A DNA stretch of 29,886 nucleotides, taken from positions 1 through 29,886 of the IMG/VR virus record IMGVR_UViG_3300007276_000198; one strand, written 5' to 3'. The position numbers and the translations under genes are program-made. Below, one piece after another: positions 1,348 through 13,891 of this stretch. Position 1 is the stretch's first letter. Each line of letters opens with the position of its first letter. This stretch comes from a virus. The notes under the pieces are model-generated. The model was not told where the DNA came from. It made no database searches and saw only the letters and a program-made list of their open reading frames with translations.

Positions 1348-1716
1348 ATGGCAAACTATGGAGTAGGAGGCGAAAGCGTAGATGATCCAACAAAATCATA
1401 TCCAACACCCACGCCAGTAAAATCATTTGGTCAGGCCAAGGCTGTACCAGTAACCAAAATAGCTGAAAGAGCATCTCATGTAATAGTTAATACTAGTGGT
1501 TCATTTAACTTTTTATACGAGACTACATGTTCTGAAGGTTCGTTGAGTGGAGGAGTAGAGGGTGGTGGAGAAACTTACGTGCCAGCAATAACAGTACATG
1601 GGGATGCGGAACCAATTAGATTAGATATTAATCCAGTAGCTTGGAGTGGTAGTCGTCGCGATGGAGACCTTGATGACGCTAATGCAGTTACTTTTGTTTA
1701 TAGAGGAGGCTTATAA
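1348..1716 (+). CDS. conserved structural-type protein, unknown function
   Basis: A 122-residue Gly/Ser/Val-rich, probably beta-rich protein with AGGAGA upstream of its ATG. Residues 45-60 (VIVNTSGSFNFLYETTC) and 90-105 (EPIRLDINPVAWSGS) look like short beta strands of a virion protein. It lies between the portal-proximal genes and the prohead protease and shares a base with the protease start (TAATG at 1714). I do not recognise a named family. A small capsid or neck component is plausible from position and composition only. Confidence 0.75.
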   Translation: MANYGVGGESVDDPTKSYPTPTPVKSFGQAKAVPVTKIAERASHVIVNTSGSFNFLYETTCSEGSLSGGVEGGGETYVPAITVHGDAEPIRLDINPVAWSGSRRDGDLDDANAVTFVYRGGL

Positions 1717-2318
1717 TGAACAAACAATTATTAGTAGATGTTATCAATTTTGATGTATCGCCCATAGCTATAAACGAATCCATTGATAAGAACAATGGAA
1801 AATTAATCGTACAAGGCATTTTACAGCGTGCAGGAGCTAAAAATCAAAACGGTAGAATATACCCCAGAGATATTTTAATGAGGGAAGCTAAGCAGTACTC
1901 GGATACCCAAATAAAAGAACGTAGAGCTCTCGGAGAGTTAGACCATCCGGATAGCTCAGTAGTTAATTTACAAAATGCATCCCATAATATTACGGAAATG
2001 CACTGGAAAGATGATGATCTAGTAGGTACCGTTGAAGTTTTGAGTACTCCAAGTGGTAACATTTTAAAAGAATTATTCAAGTCGGGAATCAAGTTGGGTA
2101 TATCAAGTAGAGGTCTGGGATCTGTACAAGAAATTCACGAAGATGATGCTGTAGAAGTTCAAGATGATTTTGAATTGATAGCATTTGATTTTGTATCTAA
2201 CCCATCCACTCATGGAGCGTTTATGTATCCTATGAATGAGGGCGTTGATAAATCCAAACGGATTAATAAATGGAACAAGGTAGAGACAATTATCAATGAT
2301 ATCATGAGAGGAACTTAG
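1716..2318 (+). CDS. 21: prohead core protease, T4 gp21-like
   Basis: A 200-residue serine protease of the T4 prohead type (peptidase family S80). Seen: the N-terminal strand GKLIVQGILQRAG then NGRIYPRDIL, the GELDHPDSS block with candidate catalytic His77, GIKLGISSRGLGS with candidate catalytic Ser130 or Ser131, and FDFVSNPSTHGAF near residues 157-169. In T4 the protease sits in the prohead core, cleaves scaffold, core and capsid proteins at (I/L)xE sites, then degrades itself. It is about the length of T4 gp21. Start ATG 1716 overlaps the previous stop by one base, and its own stop overlaps the GTG of the next gene (TAGTG). Confidence 0.93.
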   Translation: MNKQLLVDVINFDVSPIAINESIDKNNGKLIVQGILQRAGAKNQNGRIYPRDILMREAKQYSDTQIKERRALGELDHPDSSVVNLQNASHNITEMHWKDDDLVGTVEVLSTPSGNILKELFKSGIKLGISSRGLGSVQEIHEDDAVEVQDDFELIAFDFVSNPSTHGAFMYPMNEGVDKSKRINKWNKVETIINDIMRGT

Positions 2319-2494
2319 TGTCCAGCTCTTACAAACGTATCATGTTAGGTAGTAGTCCCAATAAAAAAGTTGTAAAGAAGGTTAGAGTCGTAGAAGTTAA
2401 GCCTTCTCAGTTAGATAGATTAAAAGAAGAATTACGGACAATGGATTCGGTAAAATTATCAACCACTTTACAAAAGGATTATAATGCCCGCTAA
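2318..2494 (+). CDS. small basic protein in the head operon
   Basis: A 58-residue ORF starting with GTG at 2318, sharing its G with the protease stop (TAGTG), and ending 11 bases inside the next gene. It is basic in the middle (NKKVVKKVRVVEVK) with a charged helix after (QLDRLKEELRTMDSV). The overlaps on both sides, codon use like the neighbours and the absence of a gap between flanking genes support it. No family is recognised; size and location recall the small core proteins of T4-like proheads. Confidence 0.65.
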   Translation: MSSSYKRIMLGSSPNKKVVKKVRVVEVKPSQLDRLKEELRTMDSVKLSTTLQKDYNAR

Positions 2495-3575
2495 GTCTAA
2501 GGCTCAACAACGTTTTATGGGTATGGTGCACTCTTACAATAAAGGTGATATGAAAAATGCTCCTAATTCCGTCAAAAATGTTGCTAAGAACATGACTAAA
2601 AAGTCAGCAAAAGATTTTGCTTCCACCAAACACAAAGGGAAGCCAGAGCACGTTAAGGAGAATGCAACAATGAAAATTACACGTAGCGAGATTAAAGAAA
2701 TGGTCAGAGAAGTCATGTCTAAGTCTGATATGAAGAAGGAAGCTGAAAAGCTTGAAAAGTTAGCTAAAGAGAGACAAATGGCTATGTTGACTAAGAAGGA
2801 TAAAGAAACCTTAATGAAAATAGCAGATTTAATGCGCCGACAAGTTAAGAAAGAATCTGTAAATGAAGAAATACTAAAAGAGGACATACCAGAATTAAAG
2901 AAAATAGTTAAAGAACTTGAGGGTGCCTCCAAGATGCATGCGGGTCAAGCAAAAAGAATTCAAGCTCATTTAGATAGCATGAATGTTGAAGAAGAATCTT
3001 TAGATGAAACACCAGAAGAATTAGGTGGAATGAAAATGTATTCTAAAGCAGATGCTTTAAAAAAAGTAAATTCTATGAAAAAAACAGCCGGCGCCAAGAT
3101 TTATAAAGTTGAAAAAGTAAAGGCTAAGCTATATGGTAAGCCAGCTACAGTGTATAACTTATATACTAAGAATAAAAATCATTCAACCAATCAAAATCCT
3201 TATGGATTACCTATGATGAAAGGTGTTTATATAGTACCAGTTCAAGAAGCATTAAACGTAATGCCAGGACGTTCGGGAATAAATGCAGACGAACACGAAA
3301 TAAAAGATTTTTTGCTCAAGGCCATGAAAATGTCGGGAATTAAAGTACTCAAGTACAAGCCAATGAAAAAAGGACTCATAGGTAACGATGTATGGGGTGG
3401 ATTCTATACGGTTAAATCTTCCAATAAAAGTGATGTATTACCTTTGTATATACAACGTAGTGGTAAGATAAATTTGGGTGTAGCATCAAAAGAATTTATT
3501 ATTGGTAAGATCGGGGATCTATCAAAAGTAGTCAAGAATTTAAAAGATTTTAAAAAAACAGACCTAGATCTGTAA
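2484..3575 (+). CDS. DUF3008-domain N-terminus fused to a lysine-rich head-module protein
   Basis: A 363-residue protein. Residues 1-62 match the small DUF3008 family as I know it: it begins MPAKSKAQQRFMGMVHS and continues to AKDFASTKHKGKP. DUF3008 proteins are usually about 60-70 residues alone, so this is a fusion. Residues 63-79 (MKITRSEIKEMVREVMS) start a helical, Lys/Glu-rich segment to about residue 175, followed by a mixed alpha/beta C-terminal half (185-363) with VYIVPVQEALNVMPGR and VWGGFYTVKSS. Codon 63 is an ATG at 2670 preceded by AAGGAG at 2655-2660, so a second shorter product could be made from an internal start. Function is unknown; the place between protease and scaffold suggests a prohead core or internal protein. 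Confidence 0.8.
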   Translation: MPAKSKAQQRFMGMVHSYNKGDMKNAPNSVKNVAKNMTKKSAKDFASTKHKGKPEHVKENATMKITRSEIKEMVREVMSKSDMKKEAEKLEKLAKERQMAMLTKKDKETLMKIADLMRRQVKKESVNEEILKEDIPELKKIVKELEGASKMHAGQAKRIQAHLDSMNVEEESLDETPEELGGMKMYSKADALKKVNSMKKTAGAKIYKVEKVKAKLYGKPATVYNLYTKNKNHSTNQNPYGLPMMKGVYIVPVQEALNVMPGRSGINADEHEIKDFLLKAMKMSGIKVLKYKPMKKGLIGNDVWGGFYTVKSSNKSDVLPLYIQRSGKINLGVASKEFIIGKIGDLSKVVKNLKDFKKTDLDL

Positions 3576-3594
3576 ATAACATCAGGAGAGTATT

Positions 3595-3735
3595 ATGAAA
3601 AAGTTAAAAACCCTATTGTCTGAGGTTTTTGAAGAAAATCAGGAACGGATTGACGGTAGAGCTGTTAGCAAGCAAGTATCCGAGTATGGTCTTGTTGGAA
3701 GAAACTATACGGTGAGCATAATATTATGGAGATAG
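3595..3735 (+). CDS. short ORF with capsid-targeting-like N-terminus; possibly 5' part of the next gene
   Basis: A 46-residue ORF with AGGAGAG nine bases before its ATG, a better ribosome site than the next ORF has. It begins MKKLKTLLSEVFEENQERI, an amphipathic helix with an LSE site that fits the (I/L)xE cleavage rule of T4 prohead proteases and resembles T4 internal-protein targeting peptides. It continues to YGLVGRNYTVSIILWR and stops at 3733. Its end overlaps the ATG of the next ORF by 10 bases. It could be a real small protein, or the N-terminal half of the following protein separated by a one-base shift. Confidence 0.55.
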   Translation: MKKLKTLLSEVFEENQERIDGRAVSKQVSEYGLVGRNYTVSIILWR

Positions 3736-4079
3736 CGGAGCAATTGGTCAAGATGGCAGAATCTGCACAACAACACATAGTTACGGAAACCGATGACTGG
3801 TTTGACAAGGTTAGCGTCAATCGTAACATGAAGTCCATGACTGGAATGGTAAAAGAATTTAAGTCCACAGCAAAAGATCATAAAGCTCTATCTGAAAGAT
3901 TAGTCGCTCTGTATGAGGATATGGGTGGAATACTGAACAGATATTATGATATCAGAGAAGAAATGGATCCAGTGGGTAAGGAAGATGGTGACATCGATAA
4001 TGATGGAGATACAGATTCATCCGATGAATATCTAAAGAATCGCAGAGATAAAATTTCTAAGGCAATAGATCAGGCATAG
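3726..4079 (+). CDS. conserved acidic phage protein, unknown function
   Basis: A 117-residue helical protein. Residues 1-65 are the conserved-looking part (IAEQLVKMAESAQQHI, then TDDWFDKVSVNRNMKSM); I recall the DDWFDKV-xRNM pattern from unnamed proteins of marine T4-like phages. The second half (LVALYEDMGGILNRYYDI) is helical, followed by an acidic linker (KEDGDIDNDGDTDSSDEY) that resembles a calcium-binding loop in composition but is not a clear EF-hand. No ribosome site is obvious before the ATG at 3726, so it may be translated by coupling to, or fused with, the preceding 46-residue ORF. Its stop overlaps the next GTG (TAGTG). Confidence 0.75.
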   Translation: MEIAEQLVKMAESAQQHIVTETDDWFDKVSVNRNMKSMTGMVKEFKSTAKDHKALSERLVALYEDMGGILNRYYDIREEMDPVGKEDGDIDNDGDTDSSDEYLKNRRDKISKAIDQA

Positions 4080-4384
4080 TGCTTGGAGTACTAGCATGGA
4101 TTCTTATTGTCATATCAGCAACAATTTGGCAGATAGTAGCTGCAATATGGGTACTTTGTCGTATTATTCCTCAAGGAACAACATCACAGGCTACTCGAGC
4201 TATCCAAACCAAACCACCAATACTTCAAGATCCACAGCACAAACCAATAGGTGTGGTGGAAACTCACAGTAAGAGTGCTGTCATGGTCGGTAAACCGGAT
4301 AGCATTAACGTAGATATGGATAGTGTGGAAAAAAAATTGGTTGTAACTCAAAAAGACAAGCTAAAACAACTCAGGAATAAATAA
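4079..4384 (+). CDS. small predicted membrane protein in the head operon
   Basis: A 101-residue ORF starting with GTG at 4079, sharing a base with the previous stop (TAGTG). Residues 3-31 are strongly hydrophobic (GVLAWILIVISATIWQIVAA onward), a probable transmembrane helix, followed by a Pro/Gln/Thr-rich linker and a charged tail ending KDKLKQLRNK. It ends in TAATG with the next ORF. A second frame from ATG 4096 is open for 58 Ser/Asn/Thr-rich residues and could be an alternative for the N-terminal half. I prefer the GTG frame because of the coupling overlap and its uninterrupted continuation. No family is recognised; an assembly-site membrane anchor or a holin-like role would be speculation. 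Confidence 0.55.
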   Translation: MLGVLAWILIVISATIWQIVAAIWVLCRIIPQGTTSQATRAIQTKPPILQDPQHKPIGVVETHSKSAVMVGKPDSINVDMDSVEKKLVVTQKDKLKQLRNK

Positions 4385-4803
4385 TGAAAAACTTAGCAGA
4401 TTTAATTACCAAGATAGAAACGGGTAGAGTATACACAGACAAAGATTTACCCCCATTCAAGACTGAGGCACAACACATACAGGCTGAGTTGCAAGTAGAA
4501 GCTTCTAGACCTAACGGTGAACAAAAAATAAAGATATCAAGAGCAGAATTAAAAGAATTAGTAAAAGAGGTGATATCAGAAGGACGTATGATGAAGTTAG
4601 AAATGCCCAGAGATAAAAAGTCTCGAGTAAAGGTATTGGCTATTATGAAAAAACTCAACGTACCAAAAGGGAACTCCTCTAGCAAAGACGGATATAACAT
4701 AACCAAGAAGGGCGGTAAAGAAGTATTAGAACTTCCCATGAAACACATTGATGATGTTATTGAACAAATGATAAAAATGAACGTCTCTGTACGTTCTATT
4801 TAG
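4384..4803 (+). CDS. head-module protein with ELKELVKEVISE helix
   Basis: A 139-residue protein translationally coupled to the upstream ORF (TAATG). N-terminal MKNLADLITKIETGRVY is a short amphipathic segment. Residues 47-66 hold KISRAELKELVKEVISEG, very like MKITRSEIKEMVREVM in the DUF3008 fusion and IKNILKEVIREAK at the end of the 5886 gene. The C-terminal half (70-139) is a small alpha/beta unit with KVKVLAIMKKLNVPKG and ITKKGGKEVLELPMKHIDD, which could be a compact domain. Function is unknown. The recurring helix may be a shared docking or prohead-targeting element. Confidence 0.75.
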   Translation: MKNLADLITKIETGRVYTDKDLPPFKTEAQHIQAELQVEASRPNGEQKIKISRAELKELVKEVISEGRMMKLEMPRDKKSRVKVLAIMKKLNVPKGNSSSKDGYNITKKGGKEVLELPMKHIDDVIEQMIKMNVSVRSI

Positions 4804-4811
4804 GAGGTTAT

Positions 4812-5843
4812 ATGGCTGTAGGTTTAGACTGCGGAACATCGTTTTACATTTCAGCACGTGAAAAATCAATTAAGAAGCAGCGTAATGCATTCTTAACCGT
4901 GGATGGCGATGCTGAACAATCCAAGAGAATGTTAAAGAGACAACGTATACCGTTTGTCGAGAAGGCTGGTAAAGTGCACATTGTAGGAAAACATGCTTTC
5001 AATTATGCTCAAATATTTAGTACAGCAACACTGAGACGTCCTATGAAGGATGGTTTATTGAATCCAACAGAAAAGGATAGTCTTACAATCCTCAATGCCA
5101 TTATAGGTGAATTGTTGGGTAAGTCAAAGAAAGACGAGATTTGTGTATATTGTATACCATCTAAACCCATAGACGTAGAGCGTGAAGTTTCTTATCACGA
5201 TGATGTGTTGAGTACAATTATAGAGAGTTATGGATATAAACCACACAAGGTTGAAGAAGCAGTAGCTCTTGGATATGAGGGGTTAGTCGACAACGAACTC
5301 ACTGGTGTCAGTATCTCAATGGGTGCTGGTATGTGTAACATAGCCGTTATGTATCAAGGAATGACGGCATTGAGCTTTGCAGTTTCCAGAGGTGGAGATT
5401 GGATAGATAACAACGTGGCAATGGATACTGGTGTACCAGTAGCTAAGGTGTCAAATATAAAAGAATCTTCTACACAATTAGATTTGACTAAAGGTGTAAT
5501 GCAGGACATATATGGTGAAAGTACAGAAGAATTTGCAGTAATGCACGCTTTGAGATCATATTATGGAGCATTAATTAACTATCTATTGGTTAATCTAAAG
5601 GCTCAGTTTGAAGGAGCAGCAAACGTTCCAAACTTTCCAAAGCCAGTGCCAATAGTAATTGGAGGAGGTACCTCTCTAGTTAAAGGTTTTATTGAAGTTT
5701 TTAATGAACAGTTTGACCCAGAGACCTTCCCTCTAGAAATCAGTGAAATTATACTAATAGAGGATGCTCACACTGCAGTATCAAGAGGGTGTTTGAGCGA
5801 AGCACAACTAACAGAAGAAGATGAAACTCAAGACAATTCTTAA
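4812..5843 (+). CDS. actin/MreB/Hsp70-fold ATPase
   Basis: A 343-residue protein, the length of MreB/ParM-type proteins, with a strong AGGAGG ribosome site. Seen: phosphate-1 motif VGLDCGTS (residues 3-10); connector PSKPIDVERE near 116-125 followed by KVEEAVALGYEGL as in Hsp70/actin folds; phosphate-2-like VSISMGAGMCNIAVM (166-180), in which the usual Asp is Ser; VSRGGDWIDNNVA (191-203); and adenosine motif IVIGGGTSLVKGF (281-293). There is no Hsp70 substrate-binding domain and no membrane segment. The family binds and hydrolyses ATP, often as filaments. In a head-assembly operon it might act in prohead assembly, positioning or chaperoning; that role is inferred. The acidic tail (LTEEDETQDNS) is unlike MreB. 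Confidence 0.85.
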   Translation: MAVGLDCGTSFYISAREKSIKKQRNAFLTVDGDAEQSKRMLKRQRIPFVEKAGKVHIVGKHAFNYAQIFSTATLRRPMKDGLLNPTEKDSLTILNAIIGELLGKSKKDEICVYCIPSKPIDVEREVSYHDDVLSTIIESYGYKPHKVEEAVALGYEGLVDNELTGVSISMGAGMCNIAVMYQGMTALSFAVSRGGDWIDNNVAMDTGVPVAKVSNIKESSTQLDLTKGVMQDIYGESTEEFAVMHALRSYYGALINYLLVNLKAQFEGAANVPNFPKPVPIVIGGGTSLVKGFIEVFNEQFDPETFPLEISEIILIEDAHTAVSRGCLSEAQLTEEDETQDNS

Positions 5844-5889
5844 ACAAATACTACATTTTAGTGCCAACTTTGACGGATATAAAAAATGA
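5821..5889 (+). CDS. possible 22-residue leader peptide
   Basis: An ATG at 5821, inside the end of the ATPase gene and preceded by AGAAGAAG, opens 22 codons beginning MKLKTILKQIL, like the starts of other small head-module proteins. Its TGA overlaps the ATG of the next gene (ATGA at 5886). It could couple translation into the next gene, which lacks a good ribosome site, or be chance. Confidence 0.25.
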   Translation: MKLKTILKQILHFSANFDGYKK

Positions 5890-6212
5890 AAAGAGTCACA
5901 GTTAAAGAAATACGTACGTGGATGAAGACACTTGAAGAAAATCGATACAGAAGATTAGTCATTGCAGATGCTAGACGGGTGGCTTGGTTCGTAAACAATC
6001 AGTTATCTGATAACTATGATACTATGCCTAAGACACTAAGAAAAAAATGGTCAGAGGCAAAATATGGTAAAGAGAGATATTTAGCGGAGAAGTATCTTAG
6101 AAAACTAACAGAGTCCGTATTAAAAAGAAGAATTAAAAACATACTAAAAGAGGTTATTCGTGAAGCGAAGAATACTAAAAGATCCCCCGGGCTTAACAGT
6201 ACTGGTTCATAA
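5886..6212 (+). CDS. conserved basic phage protein, unknown function
   Basis: A 108-residue highly basic helical protein. Residues 8-40 read EIRTWMKTLEENRYRRLVIA then DARRVAWFVNN, and 45-60 PKTLRKKWSEAKYGKER; as I recall, the TWMKTLEENRYR / ARRVA-FVNN pattern recurs in unnamed T4-like marine phage proteins. The C-terminus (VLKRRIKNILKEVIREAK) repeats the helix type seen in two other head-module proteins. The last 52 bases overlap the bS21 gene. The basic charge would suit nucleic-acid or scaffold contact, which is inference. The start has only a weak ACGGA upstream. Confidence 0.75.
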   Translation: MKRVTVKEIRTWMKTLEENRYRRLVIADARRVAWFVNNQLSDNYDTMPKTLRKKWSEAKYGKERYLAEKYLRKLTESVLKRRIKNILKEVIREAKNTKRSPGLNSTGS

Positions 6213-6363
6213 AAACAATATAGACAATGCCCTATCTAGGTTTAAAAATAAAGTTAAGGATAGTGGTTTGATGATGGAATTACGTGATAGAGCTTTCTAT
6301 GAAAAGCCCTCAGCAGCTAAGAGAAAAAAAATTAATGCTGCTAAACGTAGAAATAAAAAATAG
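6160..6363 (+). CDS. rpsU: ribosomal protein bS21 homologue
   Basis: A 67-residue protein of bS21 size (about 70). Seen: LTVLVHKNNIDNALSRFKNK (residues 12-31), matching the V-V--N---ALRRFK pattern of bS21, then ELRDRAFYEKPSAAKRKK (40-57) with the diagnostic FYEKP, and a Lys/Arg tail. bS21 binds the 30S platform near the anti-Shine-Dalgarno helix and affects initiation; phage copies are known from pelagiphages and large phages and are thought to bias ribosomes toward phage messages. Start is GTG 6160 with AAAGAGG six bases upstream; it overlaps the previous gene by 53 bases. It is the last gene before the scaffold-capsid unit. Confidence 0.92.
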   Translation: MKRRILKDPPGLTVLVHKNNIDNALSRFKNKVKDSGLMMELRDRAFYEKPSAAKRKKINAAKRRNKK

Positions 6364-6386
6364 TATCAATTTTTATTAATTTCTAC

Positions 6387-6396
6387 TATATATAAG
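6387..6396 (+). promoter_or_regulatory. candidate late promoter upstream of scaffold-capsid unit
   Basis: TATATATAAG lies in the 139-base gap before the scaffold gene and resembles T4 late TATAAATA and the other TATWTATA sites here. A second AT-rich candidate, TATAAT at 6482-6487, sits nearer the ATG at 6503. A promoter is expected before the highly expressed capsid genes, but which box is used cannot be told. Confidence 0.4.
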
Positions 6397-6405
6397 TAAC
6401 CAAAT

Positions 6406-6426
6406 ACTCTGTCCCACTTACAGAGT
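6406..6426 (+). other. stem-loop after bS21 gene
   Basis: A perfect 7-bp stem, ACTCTGT and ACAGAGT, with a 7-base loop. It is followed by an A run rather than a T run, so it is not a standard + strand terminator. It lies within the leader of the scaffold gene if transcription starts near 6396, so it may protect the 5' end or mark RNA processing. Confidence 0.5.
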
Positions 6427-6502
6427 CTAAAAAATATACAAATCCCATTATAGTTCATAATAACTATATTTCCAAATAATATATAATATTAGGAGAGACA
6501 CT

Positions 6503-7561
6503 ATGAGTGATCTTTTAAAAGAAGCTATTGCAGATGCTAAAGCTGTTCGTGAAACAGCATTACGTAATGCAAAAATGGCTTTAGAAGAAGCATTCACACC
6601 TCAACTGAAGTCTATGTTATCCGCTAAACTTTCTGAAGAAGAAGATTCTGATGAAGATGAAATGGAAAACGAAACATGGCACGAAGAAGTCGAAGATGAC
6701 GTCGAAGATGAAGGTATGCATAAAGAAGAAATGGAAGATGAAGTCGAAGACGAAGGCATGCACAAAGAAGCAATGCACGGTGAAGACGAAGTCGAGGATG
6801 AAGGAATGCATAAAGAAGCAATGCACGGTGAAGACGAAGTCGAAGACGAAGCAATGCACCCGGAAGACGAAGCAATGCATCCGGATAACGAAGGCATGGA
6901 CATGGAAGGTGAAGAGTCTGATGAGTTGGATCTAGAATCTATCATTAAAGAGTTAGAGCTAGAGATCAATGAAGAAGACGACGCATATCCAGACAACGTT
7001 GAAGGTCATAAGGACCCTGATCATATACAGGATCTTTCTGAAGAGGAAGAAGCTGATGATGAAGAAGAGTCTAAGGAAGAGGTTTATGAAGTAGAACTTA
7101 AAGAAGAGGATGATGCATATCCAGACAATGTAGAGGGACACACAGATTCAAATCACGTCGTTGACATGAAAGAGGAACTGAGTCGCACCAAAGCTGAGTT
7201 AGATGAGCATAAGGAAGCAATTACCTACCTCAAGGATAAGATCCACGAAGTAAATATCCTGAATGCTAAGTTGTTATTTACTAACAAACTGTTCAAGGAG
7301 TTTGCACTAGATAACCAACAGAAGATGAGAGTAGTAGAAACATTTGATAGAGCACAAACAACTAGAGAAATCAAACTTGTTTACAGCACATTAAGTGAGA
7401 ACTATTCCGCTAAACCTGTTGCTAAAAAGCGCAAGCCCAAAATTAACGAGTCTGCAAGTGCAAAGACGGGATCTACAAGACCTTCTAAGCAATCACGTAA
7501 AGTGATTACTGAAGAACAAGTTGTAGCTGATCGTTTTCGTAAACTTGCTAATATTAAGTAA
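6503..7561 (+). CDS. 22: prohead scaffold/core protein, T4 gp22-like, with Met-His repeats
   Basis: A 352-residue very acidic protein directly upstream of the major capsid gene, the gp22 position. Residues 1-45 are a helical head; 61-127 hold tandem repeats of about 16 residues (EDEVEDEGMHKEAMHG) with seven Met-His pairs. A second, dispersed repeat EEDDAYPDNVEGH occurs near 157-169 and 201-213. Residues 222-300 form a coiled coil leading to LLFTNKLFKEFALDNQQKMR, which I recall as the conserved part of gp22-type scaffolds of marine T4-like phages. The basic end (residues 310-352) contrasts with the acidic middle. Scaffold polymerises inside the prohead and is cleaved by the gp21-type protease; several LxE/IxE sites are present. 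AGGAGAG precedes the ATG. Confidence 0.87.
   Translation: MSDLLKEAIADAKAVRETALRNAKMALEEAFTPQLKSMLSAKLSEEEDSDEDEMENETWHEEVEDDVEDEGMHKEEMEDEVEDEGMHKEAMHGEDEVEDEGMHKEAMHGEDEVEDEAMHPEDEAMHPDNEGMDMEGEESDELDLESIIKELELEINEEDDAYPDNVEGHKDPDHIQDLSEEEEADDEEESKEEVYEVELKEEDDAYPDNVEGHTDSNHVVDMKEELSRTKAELDEHKEAITYLKDKIHEVNILNAKLLFTNKLFKEFALDNQQKMRVVETFDRAQTTREIKLVYSTLSENYSAKPVAKKRKPKINESASAKTGSTRPSKQSRKVITEEQVVADRFRKLANIK
6683..6883 (+). repeat. tandem 48-base coding repeats in scaffold gene
   Basis: About four imperfect units of 48 bases encode EDEVEDEGMHKEAMHG variants. The two central copies are nearly identical at DNA level (sharing GAAGCAATGCACGGTGAAGA), while outer copies have diverged, as in recent unit duplication. 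The opposite frames are also open here, a by-product of the repeat composition. Confidence 0.9.
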
Positions 7562-7571
7562 GGAGACTTAG

Positions 7572-9263
7572 ATGTCAAATTATATCAACGAAGCCCTTTT
7601 GGGTGCTTCAAATTACAAGGTACAGAAGAAAGAAGCTGAAAAACTTGTATCGAAGTGGGATCGTACTGGATTACTAGACGGTCTTGAAGGTGATTTCAAG
7701 AAGGGTGGAATGGCACAGTTGCTAGAAAACCAAGCTCGTGAACTCATCAAAGAAGCTTCAGCTACTAGCCCTAATGCTGGTGTTGCGGGTTCTTACAATG
7801 GCGACGAGGAATGGTCCGGAGTTGCTTTACCACTTGTACGTAGGATTTTTGGTGAAATAGCTGCACAGGAATTTGTTTCAGTACAGCCTATGAACCTTCC
7901 TTCTGGACTAGTATTCTACCTTGATTTCCAATATGGAAATACAAGAGCTGGTAATGCTGCAGGTTCATCATTACAAGGTAAAACAGGTAAATTCTCACCT
8001 TCAGGTAGTTCTGCTCCATTTGGTGCAGACGATAATGTTGGAGGATCAGGTCTTTATGGAGCTGGAAGCTATGGATATTCATTAGCTACAGGTTCAGAAG
8101 TCATTGGTGCGCCAGCTGTTACATTAGCTACTTGGAAAGATGTAAACTTTAATAGTGAATTATCTTCATCTGTTAATGCAGGTAAAATCTTCAAAGTTGT
8201 TGAAGCTTTAACCTCAACAGATATTGACAAGTTAGCTATTAGAGCTGCCAACTTTATCTCAGGTGGACAATCAGCAGAAAGACCACACGGTGCAAACATA
8301 GGTCCTGCAAAGAGTATTAATAGATTCTTTCCAGAACTTACATCGGTTAGTGGTGATGAAGGCGAAGCTGGATCCGTAACATTTGTTGTATCTGCATCAG
8401 TTGCAGGCGATGTTACTGGAGAAGGTAGTGGCTTAGAAATACAATATCCAAAACTAAACACAGAAGCTAGCAGAGGTGATTTTGAAGATCGCATCGGTGA
8501 CGCTACTTCTAATTCACTAGACATACCTCAAGTAGACATTGAGTTGAAGTCCAGAGCGATTGTTGCGAAAACTCGTAAGTTAAAAGCTGTATGGACACCT
8601 GAGTTGGCTCAAGACTTAAATGCATATCATTCAGTTGATGCAGAAGCTGAGTTGACATCAATGTTAACAGAGTATGTGAGTATGGAAATTGACCTAGAGG
8701 TCATGGACATGCTTATCAGTGATGCCCAAACCATTGATTACTGGTCACTAAGAGCTGGTAATGATTACAATGGTGTTGGTGGATTTACTAACACAACTTT
8801 TTATGGTACACGTTTTGAGTGGTTCCAGACATTAGTTGCTAAAATCCAAAAAGTCTCTAATGAGATTCATAAATTGACCCTACGTGGTGGTGCAAACTTT
8901 GTTGTTTGTGGTCCTCAAGTGGCGACAGTACTTGAATCCATTCCAGGCTACATGACTGATACTGATGGAACTAAGAATCAGTTCGCTATGGGCGTTCAAC
9001 AGATAGGTTCACTTGCAAACAGGTTTACTGTTTACAAGAATCCTTATATGGATGAGAATACAATTCTGTTGGGTTATCGTGGTAGTAACTTCCTAGAAAC
9101 AGGTGCTGTTTATGCTCCTTACGTACCGTTAATCATGACACCATTAGTGTATGATCCAAGTGATTTTACACCAAGAAAAGGTATTATGACTAGATACGCT
9201 AAGAAGATGATTAGACCTGAGTTCTATGGTAAGATCTACGTTGATTCATTAGATCAGCTGTAA
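7572..9263 (+). CDS. 23: major capsid protein, T4 gp23-like
   Basis: A 563-residue precursor (T4 gp23 is 521). Recognisable blocks: WSGVALPLVRRIFGEIAAQ (residues 84-102), QPMNLPSGLVFYLDFQYG (109-126) and RKLKAVWTPELAQDLNAY (residues 335-352). It forms the icosahedral shell (HK97 fold). A cleavage site fitting the gp21-type rule is IKE-A at residues 59-62, close to T4's site between residues 65 and 66, so mature protein would start ASATSPNAG. AAGGAG lies seven bases before the ATG. It is followed by a strong hairpin at 9288-9311. The insertion of Gly/Ser-rich sequence near 125-175 may be surface exposed. Confidence 0.96.
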   Translation: MSNYINEALLGASNYKVQKKEAEKLVSKWDRTGLLDGLEGDFKKGGMAQLLENQARELIKEASATSPNAGVAGSYNGDEEWSGVALPLVRRIFGEIAAQEFVSVQPMNLPSGLVFYLDFQYGNTRAGNAAGSSLQGKTGKFSPSGSSAPFGADDNVGGSGLYGAGSYGYSLATGSEVIGAPAVTLATWKDVNFNSELSSSVNAGKIFKVVEALTSTDIDKLAIRAANFISGGQSAERPHGANIGPAKSINRFFPELTSVSGDEGEAGSVTFVVSASVAGDVTGEGSGLEIQYPKLNTEASRGDFEDRIGDATSNSLDIPQVDIELKSRAIVAKTRKLKAVWTPELAQDLNAYHSVDAEAELTSMLTEYVSMEIDLEVMDMLISDAQTIDYWSLRAGNDYNGVGGFTNTTFYGTRFEWFQTLVAKIQKVSNEIHKLTLRGGANFVVCGPQVATVLESIPGYMTDTDGTKNQFAMGVQQIGSLANRFTVYKNPYMDENTILLGYRGSNFLETGAVYAPYVPLIMTPLVYDPSDFTPRKGIMTRYAKKMIRPEFYGKIYVDSLDQL

Positions 9264-10106: not shown

Positions 10107-10991
10107 ATGTTTACTCAAACAAAAATAAATGAAAATTACCTACCTGAGCATAATATGCTTGGCTTGGTGAATAATTTATATACAGATTTTATCGAACCGG
10201 TTCTAGATGGCAATCTCACCGGTGATTTTCTAGCCAAGTGGGAAAATACACCACTTAATTTTCAATCTGGTACTATCGAGAGATGTAGTTATAATACATA
10301 CAAAGCAATAAAAGAAAAAAAAAGCAAGTATACACCCGAAGATGACTCAAATGTATTTCAATTTGATGATTTTAATTCAATTGAATCAATTGACCGCAAT
10401 ACCAAATCGACTATTTCAGTTCGAGACACTTTACTTCAAGTTGTTAATGTACTAAATGTAGTAAATGACAGTACCACTTTGAGCTTATCCAATAGACCAT
10501 TGCATTATAAAAAATACAAAGGTCATGATGGGTTCATGGGGTGGCACACTAACTCTGATAATCCTGGAGATAGATGGTATTTAGTATATAATACCAATGA
10601 AGATAGTTCATTCTTTAGATACATAGATCCCAAAACAGAAGAAATGGTGACTAAGTGGGAGCCAAAGGGATGGAGTTTAAATCATTTTGTACTCGGAGAC
10701 TTTAGCAAGCCGCTGTGGCATTGTTGCTATACTAAAAATAATAGATTTTCATTTGGTGTACGAGATGTAGGTCCAATTTTGAACAAGCACAAATGGAAAG
10801 ACGTTACTGTAGGTCACTCCACAGTTAAAAATAAAGAAGAAGATGTGCGGATGGATGGGTATATAAAAACACTGATAGCAGGCTGCAGAATAGCACAAGA
10901 CAAAGGGGTCTACACATTAGAAGAAGCCAGGTCCATTATGAATTCTATAGAGTGGCTAGCTAAAGCTAAGGACAGGGGCCTTTTCTATTAA
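10107..10991 (+). CDS. 2-oxoglutarate/Fe(II) oxygenase-like protein
   Basis: A 294-residue protein. The core runs from about residue 138 to 220: GFMGWHTNSDNPGDRWYLVY, FFRYIDPKTEEMVTKW, and PLWHCCYTKNNRFSFGVR. This is the layout of 2OG-Fe(II) dioxygenases: first metal His147, distal His205, and an R-x-S region with Arg213/Arg219 for the 2-oxoglutarate carboxylate. The usual H-x-D is H-T-N here (Asn149), with Asp151 two residues further, so iron binding may be altered. Such genes are common in aquatic phages, substrates mostly unknown. It is a single-gene unit between two terminators, suggesting independent expression and an accessory origin. AGAGG precedes the ATG. Confidence 0.7.
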   Translation: MFTQTKINENYLPEHNMLGLVNNLYTDFIEPVLDGNLTGDFLAKWENTPLNFQSGTIERCSYNTYKAIKEKKSKYTPEDDSNVFQFDDFNSIESIDRNTKSTISVRDTLLQVVNVLNVVNDSTTLSLSNRPLHYKKYKGHDGFMGWHTNSDNPGDRWYLVYNTNEDSSFFRYIDPKTEEMVTKWEPKGWSLNHFVLGDFSKPLWHCCYTKNNRFSFGVRDVGPILNKHKWKDVTVGHSTVKNKEEDVRMDGYIKTLIAGCRIAQDKGVYTLEEARSIMNSIEWLAKAKDRGLFY

Positions 10992-12234: not shown

Positions 12235-12702
12235 ATGGCAGCATTTTCTCCATTTTTTATACCTCAAAAAGAAGTTGAACTATTTGATGCCCTCAACGAA
12301 GAACTCATTGATGATATACTTGGTCAGTATGTTGATATATACAAGATTTCTTTGGATGATACAAAAGCTAACATATACGGTGAAGCTGGAACTAAATACT
12401 ATCAAACGGGATTCAGAGTGAACTGTTTAATATCCTGGGAGGAGCCAGTATTCCAACAACTGGAAGCGGGACCTGATTTGGACACAAACGTGGAATTGTA
12501 CTTCCATAGAAACACACTAGCAGAGGCAGGTTTTGCACCTGAAGTTGGAGATGTGTGTGATTGGAATGATTTTTATTGGGAGATCAACTCAGTAACAGAA
12601 CCTCAATTGATAGGAGGTCATCAAGCTTTCAAGCATATGATAAAAGTAATAGCTAACCGTTCAAGACTTTCTAATTTACAGATTGAAGAGAGACCAAGAT
12701 AG
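12235..12702 (+). CDS. neck protein, probably gp14-like
   Basis: A 155-residue acidic protein. Seen: IYGEAGTKYYQTGFRVNCLI (47-66), VELYFHRNTLAEAGFAPEVG (residues 86-105), then DVCDWNDFYWEINSVTEPQL and a C-terminus LSNLQIEERPR. From memory this set of blocks matches the second neck protein (gp14-type) of T4-like cyanophages and pelagic phages, though T4 gp14 itself is longer. It starts three bases after the preceding gene. The role would be sealing the head and joining it to the tail. Confidence 0.7.
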   Translation: MAAFSPFFIPQKEVELFDALNEELIDDILGQYVDIYKISLDDTKANIYGEAGTKYYQTGFRVNCLISWEEPVFQQLEAGPDLDTNVELYFHRNTLAEAGFAPEVGDVCDWNDFYWEINSVTEPQLIGGHQAFKHMIKVIANRSRLSNLQIEERPR

Positions 12703-12703
12703 C

Positions 12704-13045
12704 ATGGCAGTTTTACCTTTGAGTAGTAGATTAATAATCAGTAATAGAAAAACTAAAACTGTTTCACGACCAATTGTAGACGAGCCAGTAGAAAATATTT
12801 ATGGAGAACAACCTCCAAGAGATAATATAGATGTGTCTGAATTAGCCAACATGATAGCTGGTAAATTGTCTGTGGGTAACCAATCAATACAATCCCAACA
12901 GAACCTACCAGTAGAAGTTGATATCAAGAGAGCAATATCTATAGGAAAGTTGGATAAAGATGCAGTGAAGTCTGAAACTCAAATAGGAACAGTTAAGACA
13001 AAGGCTCAGCAACTCAGAGCGTTGAGGAACAAAAGTGGCAATTAA
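12704..13045 (+). CDS. small neck-region protein, unknown function
   Basis: A 113-residue hydrophilic protein. The ATG at 12704 is one base after the previous stop and has GAAGAGAG upstream; it is preferred over an in-frame TTG at 12683 inside the previous gene. Residues 25-45 (VDEPVENIYGEQPPRDNIDV) look unstructured, 45-60 form a short helix (SELANMIAGKLSVG), and the tail is basic (TKAQQLRALRNKSGN), like the tail of the small membrane protein at 4079 (KLKQLRNK). No family is recognised. It overlaps the next gene's probable GTG by 11 bases. Confidence 0.7.
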   Translation: MAVLPLSSRLIISNRKTKTVSRPIVDEPVENIYGEQPPRDNIDVSELANMIAGKLSVGNQSIQSQQNLPVEVDIKRAISIGKLDKDAVKSETQIGTVKTKAQQLRALRNKSGN

Positions 13046-13891
13046 ACCAATAACTAACAAACAATCTACCAACAGACAGACTATAAATAGAGCCAGTCAA
13101 AAGTCATTCAAGACAAATGCTACTGGTAATGAAAGAAAGTCAGTAATCCTGGAAATAATTTTGGTAAAGGCCATAGTGTTACTCTTAAAGATATAGACAC
13201 TAGCGTGATAAGTCATGTAAAAAACATAATGAAACCCAGAGTGTTAGATTCTGGAGAATATGTAAAGGTACCGGTACTGTATGGTAATGAAGAAAGATGG
13301 AAATCTCTCAGAAGTAATGGAGTCTTGAGAGATAGAAATAATTCTTTAATTTTACCCGTGATGGTGTTGAGAAGGACTGATGTATCATTTAATCCAGACA
13401 TGCCACTATCTTTTGATCATGACATCAAGGGTGAATTCATTAAGGTAGAGAGGTCATCCAAATGGTCTAAAAAGAACAGATACGATAGGTTTTCCATTCA
13501 AACCGGAGCAGCTCCCATCACACAGACTATAGTAACAGGCATGCCGGATTTTGTTGTATGTAATTATAGTATAGTTATAATGACAGCATTTATGGAGCAA
13601 ATGAATGTAGTCACGGAAGTATTTCTAGAACATTTAGAAACTTACTTTGGAGACTCTGAACAATATAAATTTTTATCTAGCTTGGAAGGTGGTATTACAG
13701 ATGCTACCGAGATGACAGCTAATGGTGAACGTATCATCAAGAATGAATTTAGTATGGCTGTAAAAGCATACGTGATACCAGAGTTCACTTGAAACGTCTT
13801 GGGTACAACCGCAGAAGCATCAAAGGAATTCTCTCAGAGAAAAGTTGTGTTTGGATTTGAGGGAGATGCTACGGATTATCAAGTCAAATAG
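13035..13891 (+). CDS. conserved neck/tail-junction protein, frame interrupted twice
   Basis: The first part runs from GTG 13035 (GAGG seven bases before) in frame with MAIKPITNKQSTN to about 13136. Coding continues in the -1 frame from about 13133 (SNPGNNFGKGHSVTLKDIDT) into the intact stretch 13205-13792 with VPVLYGNEERWKSLRSNGV and SLILPVMVLRR. An in-frame TGA at 13790 follows IPEFT, and 32 more coding-like codons (ending GDATDYQVK) reach TAG at 13889. GHSVTLKDIDTSVISHVKNI matches, as I recall, one continuous protein of marine T4-like phages. Adding one A in GAAAGAAAG would restore the 5' join. It is either sequence error, a decayed gene, or recoding. The place between neck and sheath genes suggests a junction role. 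Confidence 0.7.

Follow-up and report, generated by a model that had tools for sequence, protein, structure and literature searches.

A clade of T4-like phages was found to carry, within the operon for head assembly, a gene for an actin-fold protein of the volactin family, and the analysis suggests that T4-like phages with volactin build a small cytoskeleton organising particle assembly at the cell membrane. In a window of 29,886 nucleotides, the whole stretch of viral DNA analysed here, together with related loci, computation assigned the protein to its family and fold, revealed constraint on its gene and conserved synteny with head genes, and detected two partner proteins, one of them with a membrane helix, that share a C-terminal tail, co-occur with volactin and have a related tail in Planctomycetota. 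The volactin family itself is already known; what is new is the head-operon context and the adaptors. The reading favoured here, to which we give somewhat less than an even chance, is that the shared tails bind volactin and that a membrane-tethered volactin filament captures head or neck intermediates with the help of the two adaptors. The genes of the head operon discussed below are the following:

1716-2318 (+): gp21-like prohead protease (Peptidase_S77, E 8.9e-30; phrog_207, E 5.8e-55)
4079-4384 (+): proposed membrane adaptor with a TM helix, its tail ending in ...VVTQKDKLKQLRNK
4384-4803 (+): small protein encoded between the TM-protein and volactin genes, with homologues in a subset of the clade
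4812-5843 (+): phage volactin, an actin-fold protein of 343 aa (PF25216, E 2.4e-70; AlphaFold pLDDT 87.6, pTM 0.86)
5886-6212 (+): small basic protein encoded after volactin, which the clade conserves at a shifting place in the operon
6160-6363 (+): phage homologue of ribosomal protein S21 (PF01165, E 4.1e-16)
6503-7561 (+): acidic protein in the gp22 (scaffold) position, assigned by position and conserved synteny
7572-9263 (+): gp23-like major capsid protein (Gp23, E 5.7e-76)

The gene at 4812-5843 (+) is a complete ORF of 343 codons with an ATG start preceded by AGGAGG, and its product contains the motifs VGLDCGTS, SMGAGMCNIAVM and IVIGGGTSLVKGF. The Pfam Volactin family PF25216 was matched over the full length (protein residues 1-331 against profile positions 1-321; 238 bits, with a curated cut-off of 35), as is the case for Volactin HVO_2015 of Haloferax volcanii, the filament-forming archaeal actin that gave the family its name, from which the phage protein differs in its head-operon location and in having different partner genes. 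The Pfam MreB_Mbl model gave a partial match that passed its own cut-off but covered residues 51-202 only (E 2.9e-7), and the NCBIfam models for MreB (NF010539; 22.9 bits against a cut-off of 293), MamK (19.2 against 400) and BeeR (likewise far below its cut-off) were not reached. A phmmer search of PDB sequences returned only weak MreB matches (E 0.07). No match was found in PHROGs, so that database annotation alone would leave the protein unknown.

An AlphaFold2 model built from a 44-sequence alignment displayed a two-lobed actin fold, MreB-like rather than kinase-like. In a Foldseek comparison against the PDB, MreB, MamK, BeeR and actins came out on top, with 619 matches at E <= 0.001, and VIA-align gave a Z of 28.0 for MamK over 300 residues (4.2 A) and of 26-27 for BeeR and MreB. 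No solved fold came closer than these three (Z 26-28 over 286-303 residues), which differ from the phage protein in their low identity (16-17%), in the NCBIfam cut-offs that it does not reach and in genomic context. The family match, the model and its nearest folds bear out the preliminary description, which had placed the protein in the actin superfamily by motifs at MreB-like spacing. All 343 residues were modelled as a single actin body, the last helix ending at 342, and no Hsp70-type C-terminal substrate-binding domain was present in the model; the head-specific chaperone that the description had also entertained is unlikely for this reason. The gene is under strong constraint, since the median dN/dS among 626 pairs of close relatives was 0.053 and the highest 0.099.

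The residues of the nucleotide pocket were invariant in the alignment of 44 sequences, cellular homologues included; invariant positions comprised, among others, D6, G8, T9, E149, S169, G171, G173, M174, N176, D196, K217, G285 and G286. In a pairwise alignment with MreB, E149 was paired with the catalytic-region Glu of the motif DEPMAA, and S169 with the phosphate-2 Asp. Ser169, within the pattern SxGxGMxN, was present in all 170 distinct volactins aligned, which belonged to four groups and included cellular ones, and the same Ser phosphate-2 motif was found in both haloarchaeal volactins read (n=2). A serine at phosphate-2 is thus a mark of the volactin family, and its interpretation as a phage-specific change was rejected. 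It had been supposed that this substitution might alter hydrolysis; given that the serine is universal in the family and that the filaments of Haloferax volactin, the one member known to behave so, are dynamic (PMC10869688), it provides no argument against dynamics.

At least 91 close relatives of the phage volactin were found in IMG/VR. The only two relatives in INPHARED were encoded by huge phages of 485 and 595 kb (31-34% identity), and the use of huge-phage volactins as queries led to two further viral groups. Cellular homologues were common in Planctomycetota (38-41% identity), where 98 of 246 sampled genomes contained a volactin that passed the Pfam cut-off; the family was also present in 20 of 243 Thermoplasmatota and on haloarchaeal replicons. 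The actin itself was therefore not invented by phages, as it belongs to a named family that is common in archaea as well as in Planctomycetota. In a quick tree, in which long branches were flagged, the T4-like volactins formed one branch (support 100) nested with those of Planctomycetota and huge-phage group A (support 97), and huge-phage group B and the archaeal volactins fell outside this latter branch. Several Planctomycetota genomes (G497, G641, G653 and others) contained two to four family matches each, partly adjacent to one another (contig 75 of G653, contig 78 of G641), which suggests paralogous filament systems. The same phage operon (72% identity) was also observed in NZIO01000030.1 (L087), binned as Candidatus Pelagibacter; this is a virus contig in a MAG and offers only a weak hint of the host.

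The volactin gene lies between gp21 upstream and the gp22-position and gp23 genes downstream, separated from both by several small genes, which confirms the location between prohead protease and scaffold genes given earlier. The identification of 6503-7561 as a gp22-type scaffold rests on its position, acidic composition and synteny, and no Pfam or PHROG family model matched it. Among T4-like IMG/VR loci with enough flanking sequence, gp23 was found on the same strand within 6 kb downstream of volactin in 45 of 45, and gp21 on the same strand within 8 kb upstream in 21 of 21. A reverse survey started from three different gp23 proteins and covered 152 complete gp21-gp23 intervals among their relatives: volactin was missing from 147, and the five intervals that contained it all belonged to close relatives of the window. 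It was also missing from Flavobacterium phage immuto and Microcystis phage Mel-JY01, the nearest isolates by capsid gene. The absence of volactin from these sister intervals indicates a clade-specific addition to a conserved operon. Since the T4-like volactins all form one clade, their synteny and co-occurrence do not represent independent events, and a place in the head operon can be due to late expression instead of to function. A search for the T4-type late promoter TATAARTA was not informative (8 matches against 5.4 expected). As a separate observation, the S21 gene adjoins the prohead protease gene in Mel-JY01, and in the window it lies between the volactin and scaffold genes.

The idea that orthologues would always sit beside gp21, gp22 and gp23 therefore held within the T4-like clade and failed for the huge-phage relatives, which lie outside such a cluster. 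In ten huge phages of group B, volactin was encoded 24-46 kb upstream of the gp23-like gene on the same strand, a spacing consistent with a loose connection to the structural genes but not with an operon, and a Pfam search of the 485-kb group-A phage gave no gp23 match. Location in DNA-segregation operons, the contrary case envisaged earlier, was not encountered among the phage orthologues.

A regular companion of the T4-like volactins is the protein encoded at 4079-4384, from a family of about 100 residues with an N-terminal single-pass TM helix. A profile search detected this family upstream of volactin in 69 of the 71 T4-like loci with enough flank, two genes upstream in the window and directly upstream in most loci, and it was found in none of the 147 complete gp21-gp23 intervals lacking volactin. 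Its structural model, of low overall confidence (pLDDT 63), consisted of a TM helix (residues 2-29) joined by a disordered linker to a short helix at the C-terminus (91-99). Lys and Arg were concentrated after the TM helix in 57 of 64 family members (mean 4.1 after it and 0.9 ahead of it), an arrangement suggestive of a cytoplasmic tail.

A second partner, encoded further downstream, was recognised through the C-terminal end of this protein, among the following genes:

12235-12702 (+): conserved neck-region protein upstream of the neck-site adaptor, syntenic in sister phages
12704-13045 (+): proposed adaptor at the neck site, which shares the C-terminal tail (...ETQIGTVKTKAQQLRALRNKSGN)
13205-13792 (+): tail sheath stabiliser of the gp15 type, encoded after the neck-site adaptor (T4-gp15_tss match at E 6.1e-5, narrowly missing the curated cut-off)

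For the neck-site gene, the ORF list gives a TTG start at 12683, and relatives support the ATG at 12704. About 50 C-terminal residues are common to the products of 4079-4384 and 12704-13045 (profile comparison, 98.9% probability, E 3.7e-17). The second gene lay between the same two neighbours, the neck gene (12235-12702, without a Pfam or PHROG family match) and gp15, in every volactin phage tested; in 30 sister loci that lack volactin, this interval contained no tail-bearing gene and was often a gap of 4-9 bases. Eight truncated contigs gave a tail match without volactin, these matches being located downstream of gp23, at the neck site, on contigs that stop near gp23. Both tail-bearing adaptors are restricted to volactin phages. 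The neck-site adaptor is named for the place of its gene, and a link to the head-neck vertex would be its putative role.

Related tails were also found on partners of other volactins. In Planctomycetota, a coiled-coil gene directly upstream of volactin encodes a product that ends like ESNMDNIEVKQKAGGGIAANLARLKKLKGGG, and the upstream partners in huge-phage group A end like DALKALKKLRKGGG. With an LKxLK-type motif set as L[KR]x[LAMTI][KRQ] within the last 25 residues, the tail was detected in 53 of 61 T4-like TM partners, 26 of 33 cellular partners and 5 of 6 group A partners, against 30 of 1589 other neighbouring genes taken as controls, and, once the motif had been settled, in 20 of 30 additional loci retrieved from Planctomycetota. 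An earlier expression, with an extra hydrophobic residue, had missed the T4-like tails. Comparison of tail profiles gave scores of 22.8 between the TM and Planctomycetota families, 23.1 between the neck and Planctomycetota families and 23.9 between Planctomycetota and group A, over short stretches of 25-30 columns, and none of 63 control families scored above 16.3 against any of these profiles. Because the motif was defined after inspection of the sequences and members within each group are related, the strength of this result lies in the agreement between groups and in the controls. The volactins with LKxLK-tailed partners corresponded to a single branch of the tree (support 97).

Neither the tail nor the membrane anchor is a general property of volactins. 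A universal LKxLK tail was rejected, as it was found in 0 of 66 group B cases and was also absent from Thermoplasmatota partners, these two groups having other conserved partner segments instead; a universal membrane anchor was rejected since the Planctomycetota and huge-phage partners mostly have no TM segment. Haloarchaeal relatives have a membrane protein (DUF7139) encoded immediately upstream of their volactin. In group B (L132-L211), a conserved protein of 70-90 residues with no known relatives, LIKPxxVKIITKDGE...WAIPDF...KxNFGK, is encoded directly before volactin, and a WGGVE...KRLNF segment of haloarchaeal partners is faintly similar to it. In Thermoplasmatota (L470-L485), the gene directly upstream carries a distinct segment, TEKWGSIGIDKASxQLA.

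In the mechanism proposed here, the phage volactin would be an actin-like nucleotide-binding protein expected to polymerise in an ATP-driven manner. The short helix that ends each adaptor tail would bind it, in the way that the tail of ParR binds ParM. The single-pass membrane adaptor would tether or nucleate the filaments at the inner membrane, and the soluble neck-site adaptor would link them to the head-neck vertex. In this way, volactin may gather, position or hand on capsid intermediates at the membrane, a role in positioning or organising head assembly that is strengthened by the tail-sharing membrane and neck proteins. Such a mechanism would fit the assembly of T4 proheads, which begins on the inner membrane at gp20 with gp40 (PMC9958956), and the polymers of Haloferax volactin, whose tips contact the membrane in cells (PMC10869688); T4 differs from the volactin phages in using no known actin-like protein. 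The broader proposition, that this is a phage actin cytoskeleton dedicated to virion assembly with filaments joining the inner membrane to heads, and that the tail is an old volactin-binding motif which also serves Planctomycetota, is advanced with slightly more reserve still.

A role of volactin in positioning or segregating phage DNA, as for ParM or AlpC, is unlikely; its place in the head operon would then reflect late expression only. The phage actins with tested roles do act on DNA (AlpAC, PMC4446434), salactin affects DNA distribution (PMC10746226), and operons of an adaptor plus an actin are typical of segregation systems, as in AlpC/AlpA of Corynebacterium prophage CGP3 and in ParM/ParR (PMC4446434). 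However, the adaptors of these systems bind DNA repeats, and alpAC has 24 repeats upstream, whereas no iteron array was found near the volactin gene and no tandem or clustered repeats of a segregation centromere in positions 2300-6600 of the window. Furthermore, no DNA-binding domain was recognised in its conserved partners, the membrane protein and the product of the neck-site gene, although neither matches any Pfam or PHROG family, and the linkage of volactin to gp21-gp23 is constant.

Rather less probable is that volactin, through its membrane partner, remodels the shape, membrane or cytoskeleton of the host late in infection. Haloferax volactin takes part in the rod-to-disk change of cell shape (PMC10869688), and the conserved partner of the phage protein is a membrane protein, but this would explain neither why the product of a gene between neck gene and gp15 has the tail as well nor why volactin resides strictly in the head operon. 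A non-filament role seems equally improbable, with volactin as a monomeric ATP-driven assembly chaperone or virion component for gp22/gp23 and the tails as capsid-binding or packaging peptides: the gene does lie beside the scaffold and major capsid genes and the basic tails could bind other partners, but the Hsp70 substrate domain is missing, and the related tails on partners of chromosomal volactins in Planctomycetota, on contigs that reach 1.1 Mb and have no gp23 cluster in the vicinity, make a capsid target unlikely.

If the membrane-tethered filament proves correct, phage volactin would become the first actin with an assigned role in virion assembly, and the old question of how proheads are placed at and released from the membrane would become testable. 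The phage actins tested so far act on DNA, and the one phage cytoskeleton known to move capsids is a tubulin. According to a citing passage of PMC13282480, the capsids of the nucleus-forming jumbo phages with PhuZ ride on filaments of this tubulin; PhuZ resembles the proposed system as a phage-encoded cytoskeletal filament and differs in its tubulin fold, its location outside a T4-type head operon and its work with the phage nucleus. The tail comparison also yields the first candidates for binding partners across the volactin family. In the open-access literature searched, no paper was found that deals with volactins of phages, with partners of volactin or with an actin encoded in a T4-type head operon, and the jumbo-phage reviews examined made no mention of actin.

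Two further observations concern other genes of the window. The 294-residue protein encoded downstream of gp23 at 10107-10991 (LHYKKYKGHDGFMGWHTNSDNPGDRWYLVYN) had no Pfam or PHROG match, and its HTN and RWYL segments look like parts of a 2-oxoglutarate oxygenase core. In the head operon, the genes at 2484-3575, 4384-4803 and 5886-6212 each encode one matching segment, ITRSEIKEMVREVMSKS, ISRAELKELVKEVISEG and LKRRIKNILKEVIREA respectively, which is also visible as a three-copy repeat in the DNA. The prohead protease of T4 has the cleavage consensus (I/L)xE|(A/G/S), and the segments of 4384-4803 and 5886-6212 contain a site resembling it; they could be capsid-targeting sequences of internal head proteins.
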